Shown here in pieces: positions 12,517 through 20,688 of a stretch of 41,033 bases of DNA. Under the pieces are notes generated by a model. It did not search any database. It had not been told where the DNA came from and saw only the letters and a list, made by a program, of their open reading frames with translations. Every line of letters starts with the position of its first letter. Position 1 is the stretch's first letter. Where the stretch lies: assembly GCA_016932935.1 (NCBI GenBank), contig JAFGBX010000038.1, forward strand, positions 1 through 41,033. Direction: 5' to 3'. Source of the stretch: Promethearchaeota archaeon. Lineage in GTDB: Archaea; Asgardarchaeota; Lokiarchaeia; Sigyniarchaeales; Sigyniarchaeaceae. Position numbers and translations under genes: made by a program.

Positions 12517-13518
12517 ATGGGTGCAATCCCGCCTCGCACCCGCGTGGAAAACTGCTGGATGGATGGGAAAACCGTGAGTTCTGGTATCACGACGTTTCTG
12601 GCCGAGTGGGACGAGAGCACGGGACCGAAGATAATCGACTCGTACCCAGCGTCGAAGAAGATGGATCTGGAGGACATCACGATGCAGATCTTCACTGGCT
12701 TCCAGACCGTGTTCGGTACGTCCGACGACGTGGCGTTCGACCGCACCAACCTCGTGCTACCCTTGAAGTCGTACAAGGTCACCGCGAAGATCCTGCTCGA
12801 TTCCTACCGATCCAAGCAAGTTCGTGGCGGCCGGCTGCCGTTCATCGTAGCGTTCCTGGTTCCCATCAAGTTCTTCGAGAGGGAGCTGCACGTCTACAAC
12901 GGGATCCAGGAGCGCATCGTCGACCAGTACGCGAAGGCGAAGGCCATCGACCTGAAGTCCTACTTCGAAGATGTCGTGGCGGAGACCGAGAAGCTCGCGA
13001 TGAAGACGCGGGATAAGGCCGAGTCCTTGTTGAAGAAGAAGGAATACTGGAAGTCCGTCGAGGAGTTCCGCACTTCGCTCTTCTTGCTCAAGCTCACGAG
13101 GAACGCCCCGGCGATCGAGGAGACCTTGAAGAAGATGGAGGCCGCGATCACCAAGTTCTCCAAGGAAATCCTCGACGAGGTCGGGAAGAAGATCAAGAGC
13201 GGCAACTGGAAGGAGGCCGAGAAGGATCACTTGCTGGCCGTACGCCTCGCCAAGGAGGTCAAGAACGAGAAGATCATCGCCCTCTACACGGGCAGGCTCC
13301 ACGACTTCTACACGAGCTGGATCAAGGCGCTGGAGAGGGAATCGAAGGTCGCGCTGAAGTGCAAGGACATGGAGGCCGTCCGGGACGTCCAGGACAGGAT
13401 CGTGAAGCTGGCGCAGAAGACCAAGGACGAGAAGCTGATTCGGAAGCACGAAAAGGAGCGGGACAAGCACGCCCCGCCTGAACCGGATGAGGAAGAGAGC
13501 CTATACGAAGAGGAATGA
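12517..13518 (+). CDS. Longin-like domain protein with helical C-terminus
   Basis: TTFLAEWDESTGPKIIDSYP resembles the first strand/turn of longin/uDENN-type domains (xxGPxI). Followed by a charged helical (TPR/HAT-like) region. Internal ATG at 12559 is an alternative start. Confidence 0.65.
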   Translation: MGAIPPRTRVENCWMDGKTVSSGITTFLAEWDESTGPKIIDSYPASKKMDLEDITMQIFTGFQTVFGTSDDVAFDRTNLVLPLKSYKVTAKILLDSYRSKQVRGGRLPFIVAFLVPIKFFERELHVYNGIQERIVDQYAKAKAIDLKSYFEDVVAETEKLAMKTRDKAESLLKKKEYWKSVEEFRTSLFLLKLTRNAPAIEETLKKMEAAITKFSKEILDEVGKKIKSGNWKEAEKDHLLAVRLAKEVKNEKIIALYTGRLHDFYTSWIKALERESKVALKCKDMEAVRDVQDRIVKLAQKTKDEKLIRKHEKERDKHAPPEPDEEESLYEEE

Positions 13519-14475
13519 CTTCACGAGCCACTTGAAGTTCTCCTCGATGCCATCGCTGTTCACTGCGCTGCATAGACCGATCCGGTAGTTTAGGCCGGCA
13601 ACCTTGCCAGGCTTGAGCAGCGCGTCGATGGACTTCTCGGTGAACGACGGGTTCAAGTCGATCTTGTTACCGAGGATCAGCACGGGGGTGTTCTCGGCGA
13701 CCTTGTGCTGGCCGTCCTTCGAGAAGAAGTTCTCGACCATGCGGTCGAACTCGCGTCTCGAGTCCTCGAACTGCTCCTTGCTCGCCGTCGCGTCGATCAC
13801 GAAGATGATTGCGTTGGGATCCACGTTCTGGTCGTACCAGCGCTCTCGGATCTTCTCTTGCCCGCCCAGGTCATAAATGTTGAACTTGAACGCATCAACA
13901 GCCGATCTGATGATCTGCATACCGAGCGTGGGCTTGATGCCAGGGCTGAACTTCTTGCCCGTCACCACGTTGATGATCGACGACTTGCCGACGGCCTGGA
14001 GCCCGAGGATCAGCATCTTGCCCGGTTTTTGCGCTTCCGGCTTCCGGCGGCATGCCTCGTAGCAGTCCGTGACGAGCAGCTTGACCAGCTTGTAGGCCTT
14101 CTCGATGCCTGGATCCTTCTTGTCGCTATCCCCGTAGAACCCCTTGTACCCGTCCTTGATCGACTTGAGCGCGGTCGCGAACTTGGCCAGCGTCGATTCG
14201 AAGATCGAGGGCTTGAGATTGTCATCGACCGTGAGGGTGAGCATCGCCATCTCCTTGTTCCCCCTTGCCCATTGGCTATCCATAAAGAAGAGGTAGTTCG
14301 CGCAAGAGAAGGACTCCCCGCCGATCTTTGAGTGGTGCTCGAAGAACCCCTCGCCTTCCGACACGTCGAACAGGCGCACGAGCACGGCCTCGACGTCCTT
14401 TGAGACCGCCCTGGGGATGGCATCGAACGCGAAAGGCCCGCGCTGGCCGTGGAAGTGCATGAGGACAAGGTTCAT
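13501..14475 (-). CDS. Small GTPase, Arf-like, with N-terminal longin-like domain
   Basis: G1 GLQAVGKSS, G2 PTLGMQ, G3 DLGGQE (Arf/SR-beta/Rag type), G4 NKID, G5 CSA. Preceded by about 140 aa starting NLVLMHFHGQRGPFAFDAIP (longin-like). Confidence 0.88.
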   Translation of the reverse strand: MNLVLMHFHGQRGPFAFDAIPRAVSKDVEAVLVRLFDVSEGEGFFEHHSKIGGESFSCANYLFFMDSQWARGNKEMAMLTLTVDDNLKPSIFESTLAKFATALKSIKDGYKGFYGDSDKKDPGIEKAYKLVKLLVTDCYEACRRKPEAQKPGKMLILGLQAVGKSSIINVVTGKKFSPGIKPTLGMQIIRSAVDAFKFNIYDLGGQEKIRERWYDQNVDPNAIIFVIDATASKEQFEDSRREFDRMVENFFSKDGQHKVAENTPVLILGNKIDLNPSFTEKSIDALLKPGKVAGLNYRIGLCSAVNSDGIEENFKWLVKSFLFV

Positions 14476-16102: not shown

Positions 16103-17338
16103 CTAGGTCGCGTCCAGTTCCCAGAGGGGGGCCCTCATCTTGCCGAAGTGCCCGTAGCGGAAGTAGGGCACGTGCACGCGTACGCCCCTTCCGGCGAGCT
16201 GCTTGAGCACCGGATCCTCCATTTGGAACTGCGAAACGGCCACCGCTTCGAGGCTGGGCATCTGGAGGAGCTCGACTGGAAACTGGCAAGAAGAATCGGC
16301 CATCTTGAGGTGCTTGAGCTGGGACATGGAGAGAATCACCCCTGGGAACTCGCGTCCCTTGTAGCCGTTCAGGCCGAGCACCTGGAGATGCGAGAACGAG
16401 TCGAACCAGCCCGGCATCGCGGCGATCTCGTTCGAGCCCAGGTCCAGGTACTTGAGCCCGTCGCAGGCCCGCAGCTCCTCCGGCACCTCCCGCAAGGAGT
16501 CGTGCATGATGTCGACGCGGGCGGCGTCGCGGAGACCCCCGAGCAGCCTGGCGAGGAGCGCACCTTGCGATGCCTCCCGGACGAGGAAGCTCGCGTCCAG
16601 CACGAGGAGCCGAGCGAGGCCTTCCACGCTGGCCGGTAGCTGGCGAAGTGGGACGTCGGCGATCTTCAGGACCTCGAGGTTTCTGAGGCTCGAGAACGAT
16701 TCGGGTAAAGAATGGAGCGGGTTATTTGAGACCTCCAACCGCTTCAATTTAGCCAAGGATCCAAGGTTTTCTGGCAAAGCTACGAGCTTGTTGAGCCCCA
16801 GCTTGAGGGATTCCAGGTTCCGGAGCGTGCAGACGCTGCACGAGACCTCGCGGAGCTGGTTGGCCTCGAGGGATATGGACTCCAGGCGTGGGCAGCTGCC
16901 CAGGGGCGCCGTTACGAGCCCGCCCAAGTGGTTCCACGAGACATCGATCTCGCGGAGCCCCTCGGAGCCAGCGAGAGGGGCGAGATCCAGCGTCGTGAGC
17001 GCGTTCTGATACAAGTCGAGGAGTTCGAGGTGGGGGAACTTGCCAAGCGTGAGCTCGTATACGCATGGCTCGGTAGAGGCCATCGTGATGTCACCTTGGA
17101 GATCGATGCGACGCAGCGGGCAACCTTCTAACTTCCTCAAGTCCACGTGAACGCCGTGGAAGTCGTTCCCGCTCAGGTCGAGATCCTCGAGCGAATGTAG
17201 GGTGCCGATCGCGTCGAAATCAACGTCTAACAGCAGCTTGTCGTGGAGATCGAGCCGCTTCGTCTCGGCTGGCACGACGACGAAGAACGACTCGCCGGGA
17301 TACCGCTTCCCGTCGATCCGCACGGTGCCGCTTGGCAT
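16103..17338 (-). CDS. Leucine-rich repeat protein
   Basis: Repeated LxxLxLxxNxL units: LEDLDLSGNDF, LELLDLYQNAL, LREIDVSWNHL, LESISLEANQL, LESLKLGLNKL, LKRLEVSNNPL, LKYLDLGSNEI. Confidence 0.92.
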   Translation of the reverse strand: MPSGTVRIDGKRYPGESFFVVVPAETKRLDLHDKLLLDVDFDAIGTLHSLEDLDLSGNDFHGVHVDLRKLEGCPLRRIDLQGDITMASTEPCVYELTLGKFPHLELLDLYQNALTTLDLAPLAGSEGLREIDVSWNHLGGLVTAPLGSCPRLESISLEANQLREVSCSVCTLRNLESLKLGLNKLVALPENLGSLAKLKRLEVSNNPLHSLPESFSSLRNLEVLKIADVPLRQLPASVEGLARLLVLDASFLVREASQGALLARLLGGLRDAARVDIMHDSLREVPEELRACDGLKYLDLGSNEIAAMPGWFDSFSHLQVLGLNGYKGREFPGVILSMSQLKHLKMADSSCQFPVELLQMPSLEAVAVSQFQMEDPVLKQLAGRGVRVHVPYFRYGHFGKMRAPLWELDAT

Positions 17339-19479: not shown

Positions 19480-20688
19480 GTGAATCAGAATCCCGGTGAC
19501 GACCCGCGAGACGAGCAGATCTTGCTAAGGCACGTTCGAAAGTATGAGGCGGCCTTTGCCAGCAGAGGGGCCGATCTGGAAAGCTTGATGCAAGCTTACA
19601 GCAGTTTAGGTAACTTTTATCAGCTCTCTGGTCGTTTAAACGAGGCGGAGGCTACGTACAACCAGGCAATCGAGTTCAAGAAGACGCGTGCCGCGGAGAT
19701 AAGCTACGACGGCGTCTTGCTCGTGGTCAGCTCGATCCACACGGAGCTCGGCATCGTCCATCGCAAGCGCGACGAATTCGCCGCCATGGTGCCGTGCTTC
19801 GAGGCCGCCCTTGAGATAACGAAGAGGCTGGCCGCAAGCTCGCCAGATGAGTACAAGCCCCGACTCGCGGAGTCCTGGAACAACCTCGGCACCGCGCTCC
19901 GCAAGGTCGGGAAGCACGACGATGCATGGAAGGCGTACCAGACCGCCCTCGAGTTGCGAAATGGGCTTGCCGTACCGGGAAATCCCGATAGGTATCACGA
20001 CCTCGCCAATACCCAGGCAAACATCGGGACGCTGCTCCGCGAGCAGGGCAAGCTAGAGGAATCGAAGGCCGCCTTCGAGGCCGCCGTCGAGGCACACCAA
20101 AAGATCCCCGCGGGCGAGGCCAAACCGTTCATGGCAACCCGCGCCAACTTGTTCAACAGCCTCGGGGTCGTGAAGAACGACCTGGAGGACTTTGCCGGGG
20201 CCATCGAGTATTATAAGAAGGCATTGGCGGTGTACGAGCGCTCGATCGGCGAGAAGGCCGCGTCCCGCGTGCCCGAGATGGCGATGGTCTGCAACAACAT
20301 CGCGAGCGCCTACAAGAGCGCTGGCCAGCTCGACGCCGCCGAGCAAGCCTTCTTGAAGAGTTACGAGCTGTACAAGGGCCTGGTACAAGAGGAACCCCAC
20401 GTCTACTCGCGGTTCCTCAAGGTCGCCATGGAGAACCTCCGGATCTTCTACTCGCAAGTTGGAAAGCAAGAAAGCGGCTTGAGACTGGTCAAGGACACGC
20501 TGGAATTCATACAACAGGTCGCGGGCGTCGTGGACGGGAAGATCGAGGCCGTGAAGGGGAAGATAGACGAGCAGCTCAAGCTCCAGGCAGCGAATGCCCC
20601 GAAGAAGGTAGGCAGGAATGACCCGTGCCCGTGCGGGAGCGGGAAGAAGTACAAGAGGTGCTGCTTGCCGAAGGGACGCAACTCATAG
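19480..20688 (+). CDS. TPR protein with C-terminal SEC-C zinc-binding motif
   Basis: Repeated TPR units (LAESWNNLGTALRKVGKHDDAWKAYQTALEL, NSLGVVKNDLEDFAGAIEYYKKALAVYE). C-terminal KKVGRNDPCPCGSGKKYKRCC is a canonical SEC-C motif. GTG start. Confidence 0.9.
   Translation: MNQNPGDDPRDEQILLRHVRKYEAAFASRGADLESLMQAYSSLGNFYQLSGRLNEAEATYNQAIEFKKTRAAEISYDGVLLVVSSIHTELGIVHRKRDEFAAMVPCFEAALEITKRLAASSPDEYKPRLAESWNNLGTALRKVGKHDDAWKAYQTALELRNGLAVPGNPDRYHDLANTQANIGTLLREQGKLEESKAAFEAAVEAHQKIPAGEAKPFMATRANLFNSLGVVKNDLEDFAGAIEYYKKALAVYERSIGEKAASRVPEMAMVCNNIASAYKSAGQLDAAEQAFLKSYELYKGLVQEEPHVYSRFLKVAMENLRIFYSQVGKQESGLRLVKDTLEFIQQVAGVVDGKIEAVKGKIDEQLKLQAANAPKKVGRNDPCPCGSGKKYKRCCLPKGRNS

Follow-up and report, generated by a model that had tools for sequence, protein, structure and literature searches.

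A longin–Arf GTPase fusion and a second longin protein in Asgard archaea as a possible GTPase switch carrying a longin-type GAP of its own

Does an Arf-type GTPase that carries a longin-like domain at its N-terminus have its regulator next door, in a longin-like protein whose gene converges on its own? Asgard archaea possess dozens of small GTPases, the regulators of which are almost unknown. In humans, the NPRL2 and C9orf72–SMCR8 complexes switch such GTPases off. GAP and GEF partners in Asgards are hard to assign from gene layout (Tran et al., PMC10933270). The window that we consider, which is the whole stretch of 41,033 nucleotides analyzed, comes from a Sigynarchaeota-like Asgard genome; judged by the GTPase gene, Ca. 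Sigynarchaeum and MAGs of Sigynarchaeota are among its close relatives. Below, LonA denotes the longin-like domain on the GTPase and LonB that of the partner protein.

The locus consists of a convergent pair of open reading frames, at 12517–13518 (plus strand) and 13501–14475 (minus strand), with 3′ ends that overlap. The stop codons given in the initial annotation (TGA at 13516–13518 on the plus strand and TAG at 13501–13503 on the minus strand), and the 18-bp overlap that they imply, are reproduced from the ORF coordinates. Taken alone, a tail-to-tail overlap of this length is ordinary. The plus gene probably starts at ATG 12559 rather than at 12517, because in the orthologue from a related genome (G001; 78% identical, and 80% when counted from this Met) an in-frame TAG precedes the same Met. 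The features of the pair are as follows.

12559–13518, plus strand: gene of the LonB partner, 319 aa from the likely ATG at 12559 (longest ORF from 12517), comprising LonB and a helical TPR-like tail
12586–12993, plus strand: LonB longin-like domain, residues 10–145, with the motif WDxxxGP...YP (LonB profile; hhalign to C9orf72/SMCR8)
12823–12825, plus strand: codon of LonB Arg89 (VRGGRLPF), a possible arginine finger within what is predicted to be the β4–β5 loop
13006–13515, plus strand: helical TPR-like C-terminal region of the LonB partner (the homologous tail at locus L068 scores as TPR_2)
13501–13518, no strand assigned: overlap of both coding 3′ ends, 18 bp (equivalent overlap in G001, contig C228)
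13501–14475, minus strand: LonA-Arf GTPase gene, 324 aa
14041–14475, minus strand: LonA longin-like domain, residues 1–145 (LonA profile; hhalign to human NPRL2)
14263–14265, minus strand: codon of LonA Arg71 (WARGNKE), candidate catalytic arginine finger (conservation with the catalytic Gln)
13510–14037, minus strand: Arf-family GTPase domain, residues 147–322 (PF00025; best PDB match 8oul_A)
13858–13860, minus strand: codon of the switch II catalytic Gln206 (DLGGQE; motif)

The genes flanking the pair are unrelated to it, and include those for an MFS transporter, a B12/radical-SAM protein, and a leucine-rich-repeat protein. Elsewhere in the window, we note a glucuronyl-esterase-like protein (PF22244; 7466–8614), a leucine-rich-repeat protein (16106–17338), and a TPR protein with an SEC-C motif at its end (19480–20685).

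The minus-strand protein contains all of the G motifs (GLQAVGKSS, KPTLGM, DLGGQE, GNKID, and CSA), in agreement with the five motifs, Arf-type DLGGQE included, that had been read from the sequence at the outset. The Pfam Arf model (PF00025) matches residues 147–320 with an E-value of 8.5e-32, ahead of Ras (4e-13), RagA (6e-8), and SRPRB (5e-7), and the best PDB match is 8oul_A, deposited as 'Arf GTPase' (E 9.3e-18), with ARL3 next. Judged by this model and by the presence of GxxxxGK[ST], PT in switch I, DxGGQ in switch II, and NKxD, the GTPase domain is a member of the Arf family. An SR-β-like assignment finds its Pfam model far below that of Arf, and the partner protein shows no NG-domain match; the Rag layout is absent, as the GTPase domain runs to the C-terminus with no roadblock after it. 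The extra N-terminal domain of about 140 aa described in the initial annotation corresponds to LonA (residues 1–145), which has no significant Pfam match. Because LonA stands in place of the Arf-type N-terminal amphipathic (myristoylated) helix, the protein is, from its domain layout, not a classical Arf. Matches to LonA at E ≤ 1e-6 were obtained in 78 of the order's 79 genomes, with weaker matches elsewhere in the phylum. Some LonA proteins, of about 386 aa, have C-terminal halves that by hhalign are neither GTPase nor longin. Nearly all genomes of family f12 (G065–G087) have one LonA-like match that is weak (E about 1e-12) and apparently lacks a fused GTPase, and at L183:8308-13904 (G142) there is a run of neighboring small-GTPase genes that includes the LonA-Arf type and that a 307-aa LonB gene adjoins.

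The plus-strand protein, LonB included, has no significant Pfam match; matches to SCIN, PspC, and similar Pfam/NCBIfam models were set aside as chance-level hits in the helical region. The LonB profile matches it with an E-value of 7.6e-42, a figure to be read in light of the window sequence being a member of that profile (as it also is of the LonA profile). Of the phylum's 228 genomes, 97 carry a LonB. The helical tail has a homologue at L068 that reaches the TPR_2 cut-off (1.8e-6), and clear TPRs occur on other LonB partner proteins. On visual inspection, the 693-aa LonB–TPR partner at L064:7318-9399 seems to have another longin-like domain at its end (IWIFSGDSGLLIYSYAP...). Of 72 LonB proteins, 21 carry a receiver domain (PF00072, E about 2e-23). 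LonB occurs also without a GTPase, joined to receivers and TPRs. The receiver fusions are a possible direct route from two-component signaling to small GTPases. Receiver–LonB proteins of about 300 aa are common in Lokiarchaeia (L043:1471-2355, L066:8958-9905, and about 20 similar loci).

The two proteins could nevertheless be accidental neighbors, with LonA-Arf being one of many Asgard longin–GTPase fusions and the plus gene encoding an unrelated longin–TPR protein. Several observations fit this reading: tail-to-tail genes are not co-transcribed, the flanking genes are unrelated, G002 and many other loci lack the overlap, and small GTPase genes in MK-D1 lie generally outside operons with longin genes (PMC10933270). 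Against it stand 25 proteins of related genomes in which a single ORF has the order LonA–GTPase–LonB, so that both domains are fused around the GTPase. Some of these end after LonB (487 aa in G002, at L083:7301-8764), while many are extended by PAS, GAF, and HATPase_c domains to about 1120 aa. In addition, separate LonA-Arf and LonB genes are neighbors again outside G001, with the adjacency reaching a distant genus: in G058 (convergent, 25 bp apart) and in G057 (on one strand). For 21 loci and about two LonB genes per genome, roughly 0.02 such adjacencies would be expected by chance, given an assumed gene number, and on this rough estimate the neighborhood of the two genes appears far above chance. 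We therefore regard an accidental pairing as very improbable. The initial annotation had called for a survey of the pair across Asgard genomes; conservation holds for the protein pair, given the fusions and the adjacencies, and not widely for the convergent overlap, which was seen in the window genome and in G001. As adjacency, too, is absent at many other loci, the conserved feature across the genomes compared is the protein pair and not the gene overlap. Some genomes have LonA without a detectable LonB, and a search of viral contigs found no homologues. Contig C228 of G001 has an end at which short repeats of the GTPase C-terminus are followed by its N-terminal 43 residues (L070:5241-5612); we considered a truncated GTPase gene here and rejected it, a chimeric contig end being simpler, given that this N-terminus is intact on contig C27.

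To place the two longins among known families, we compared their profiles with eukaryotic sequences. LonA and LonB are related to one another (hhalign probability 92%, E 7e-7), and the alignment places their Arg loops opposite each other. The LonA profile scores 37.3 against human NPRL2 (probability 85%, E 6e-6) and 28.6 against SMCR8, and the LonB profile scores 29.6 against C9orf72 over 127 columns, 27.9 against SMCR8, and 24.4 against NPRL2. By comparison, the top score among 234 unrelated or shuffled decoys was 21.5, and among a further 240 unrelated Asgard fragments 20.6. The NPRL2, FLCN, SMCR8, and C9orf72 query sequences were verified against PDB chains; the YKT6, SEC22B, AP2S1, TRAPPC1, and LAMTOR2 controls scored at background. 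Neither FLCN nor yeast Npr2 gave a significant score in the comparison. The local alignment of LonA with NPRL2 spans only 32–35 columns (β1–β2–α1), the Pfam NPR2 model gave nothing above its cut-off in 29 genomes and did not find the LonA genes, and an hmmsearch of both profiles against PDB sequences returned no longin. Weak Pfam matches among LonA members to Afi1 (0.0046) and Folliculin (0.035), which are below threshold in a scan of many members, are suggestive; neither protein, nor any of the fusions scanned, has a DENN match.

In these comparisons, both longins side with the heterodimeric longin–GAP complexes and not with longins at large, the SNARE, adaptin, TRAPP, and roadblock controls staying at background. 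The proposal that both N-terminal regions are longin-like is thus borne out at the profile level, with similarity to NPRL2 and to C9orf72/SMCR8 above all decoys. Among the relatives that the initial annotation had put forward, NPRL2 finds support for LonA, whereas FLCN and Rag/roadblock do not; we had ourselves considered FLCN as the nearest relative of LonA because of the ARG motif, and dropped it when the profile comparison gave no support. AlphaFold models built from a three-sequence alignment (window, L001, and L002) have pLDDT values of 39 for LonA alone and 42 for the full GTPase protein, and the order of elements in these models, β-β-α-β-β-α-α, agrees at low confidence with the longin topology (β-β-α-β-β-β-α-α). 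A longin fold of LonA and LonB in three dimensions is presumed here from the profile similarity.

The catalytic residue of NPRL2 is Arg78, and the arginine finger of both FLCN and NPRL2 lies in the β4–β5 loop. More generally, the catalytic Arg of longin/DENN GAPs is found between β4 and β5 (PMC8213707, PMC12803157), and in SMCR8 it is Arg147, which is located on the longin domain and directed at the γ-phosphate of ARF1 (PMC8213707). Each of our longins has one conserved Arg in the β4–β5 loop (with strand boundaries as predicted), within WARG in LonA and VRGG in LonB. LonA Arg71 is present in all 29 proteins that have the switch II Gln and in all 17 LonA proteins without a GTPase, but in only one of nine members of a kinase-fused clade with Lys for Gln, and in none of three members of another Gln-less clade. 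The nine-member clade retains the P-loop, the switch I Thr, and Trp213 in 9/9 proteins and NKxD in 8/9, and among about 42 conserved columns it has lost Gln206, Arg71, Gly72, Phe8, and Gly13. Gln-less branches account for 37% of the length of the tree, and all eight inferred Arg71 changes fall on them (p about 4e-4, with changes inside one clade not fully independent). Independent co-losses of Arg71 and Gln number only two, three other Gln losses retain Arg71, and an independent-pairs (sign) test was not significant, the pairs being too few. In the kinase-like region of several proteins of the nine-member clade (L080, L157, and L161–L164), the H-box has Asn for His (FVNDIN, compared with FAHDMN in L074). 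Since the H-box His is replaced in addition, the Lys-for-Gln clade appears to have lost several catalytic functions, and its fusions of about 1120 aa are likely scaffolds composed of a pseudo-GTPase and a pseudo-kinase.

The second candidate Arg complicates this picture. An Arg occupies the LonB Arg89 position in 66 of 72 LonB domains, and a global profile alignment places LonB VRGGRLPF on SMCR8 EARGFVRPF, with Arg89 on Arg147. Because the LonB Arg equals that of LonA in conservation, and does not vary in the Gln-less clade, either it or neither of the two could be the finger. One reading would thus make LonB the GAP subunit, its VRGG Arg serving the GTPase that is fused to LonA, or else other GTPases in trans, with LonA as the non-catalytic half; the conservation of the residue, its alignment with the catalytic Arg of SMCR8, and the existence of LonB without a GTPase, on receivers and TPRs, all speak for it, whereas loss of the catalytic Gln is tracked by the Arg of LonA and not by that of LonB, and we consider this reading improbable. 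Alternatively, LonA and LonB could form a platform that promotes nucleotide exchange or binds effectors, similar to TRAPP, Mon1–Ccz1, or Ragulator, with each Arg stabilizing its loop or contacting the GTPase rather than taking part in catalysis. GEF or scaffold roles are frequent for longin and roadblock dimers (PMC10933270), the LonB Arg persists in the Gln-less clade, and the LonA Arg is retained where three other GTPases lack the Gln or are degenerate, as well as in the GTPase-free LonA proteins. However, profile similarity is seen with longin-GAP subunits and not with TRAPPC1 or LAMTOR2, and the Arg71 changes are confined to Gln-less branches; a platform of this kind seems to us rather unlikely.

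We favor, at a probability of roughly 0.5, a GTPase switch that brings along a longin-type GAP, with the second longin as a link to TPR or two-component signaling. Under this model, LonA would replace the Arf amphipathic helix at the N-terminus of the GTPase, and the plus-strand protein would contribute LonB on a TPR-like arm. The two longins would form a heterodimer cupping the GTPase, as SMCR8–C9orf72 does ARF1, and Arg71, from the β4–β5 loop of LonA, would enter the active site beside Gln206 and accelerate GTP hydrolysis. LonB would complete the platform and connect it to an input or target, via TPR arms here and via receiver or PAS/GAF/HATPase domains in relatives. The sequences themselves show the gene structure, the Arf family, the likeness of both longins to those of NPRL2, SMCR8, and C9orf72, the fusions, the adjacency, the conservation of each Arg, and the joint loss of Arg71 and Gln; we infer the LonA–LonB dimer, the GAP chemistry, the role of the LonB Arg, and the process controlled. 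The suggestion that this is a module of GTPase and regulator, made at the outset, gains support from the fusions, the gene adjacency, and the profile comparison with longin-GAP longins.

Three known systems invite comparison. The C9orf72–SMCR8 complex, a longin–DENN heterodimer and ARF GAP (PMC8213707), likewise brings an Arf-family GTPase together with two distinct longins; LonB resembles both C9orf72 and SMCR8, LonA resembles SMCR8, and an Arg stands at the position of SMCR8 Arg147. Here, in contrast, no DENN domain is recognized, LonA is covalently attached to the GTPase, and LonB has TPR, receiver, or kinase-like partners. NPRL2 of GATOR1, a Rag GAP, is nearest to LonA by profile, and shares with it the FxxxxGPxIxxxxP start and the loop Arg, but the GTPase here is Arf-type by sequence rather than Rag, and LonA is fused to it. 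The Myxococcus MglA–MglB–RomR system (PMC6785124) also joins a prokaryotic small GTPase to a GAP of the roadblock/longin class and a receiver-domain protein; there, however, MglB is a roadblock homodimer encoded by a separate gene and the finger is a switch I Arg of MglA itself, whereas here we find longins, and the candidate finger comes from a longin.

Some of this ground is already known. Tran et al. (2024; PMC10933270) described longin–GTPase and longin–GTPase–roadblock fusions in MK-D1, with AlphaFold models, and 'NPRL2-like longin domain' is an asCOG, a category of Asgard proteins (PMC9834061); given the shared N-terminal longin on an Arf/Rag-like GTPase, LonA probably belongs to this family. 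According to a proposal by Zhang et al. (PMC3521125), the longin/DENN mode of GTPase binding has a prokaryotic root by way of roadblock proteins. The main texts of PMC10933270 and PMC9834061 describe no LonB, LonA–GTPase–LonB order, arginine-finger signature, or two-component fusions, and open-licence main texts yielded no report of the LonA–GTPase–LonB order, the likeness of LonB to C9orf72/SMCR8, the Arg signature with Gln co-loss, or receiver–longin fusions.

The value of the pair for further work is that the GTPase and its candidate GAP share one polypeptide and the fusion identifies the second longin, while the single residues Arg71, Arg89, and Gln206 offer a direct assay. At somewhat less than even odds, we propose that these proteins are prokaryotic relatives of GATOR1 and C9orf72–SMCR8, with the GAP longin fused to its GTPase and the second longin wired to two-component signaling, and that the heterodimeric longin GAP predates eukaryotes. 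If true, the heterodimeric longin GAP, represented in humans by NPRL2 in mTORC1 amino-acid sensing and by the ALS-linked C9orf72 complex, would have a prokaryotic counterpart, and Asgard small-GTPase signaling would be linked to two-component systems. The LonA/LonB–GTPase pair may thus be a prokaryotic forerunner of the NPRL2 and C9orf72–SMCR8 regulators.
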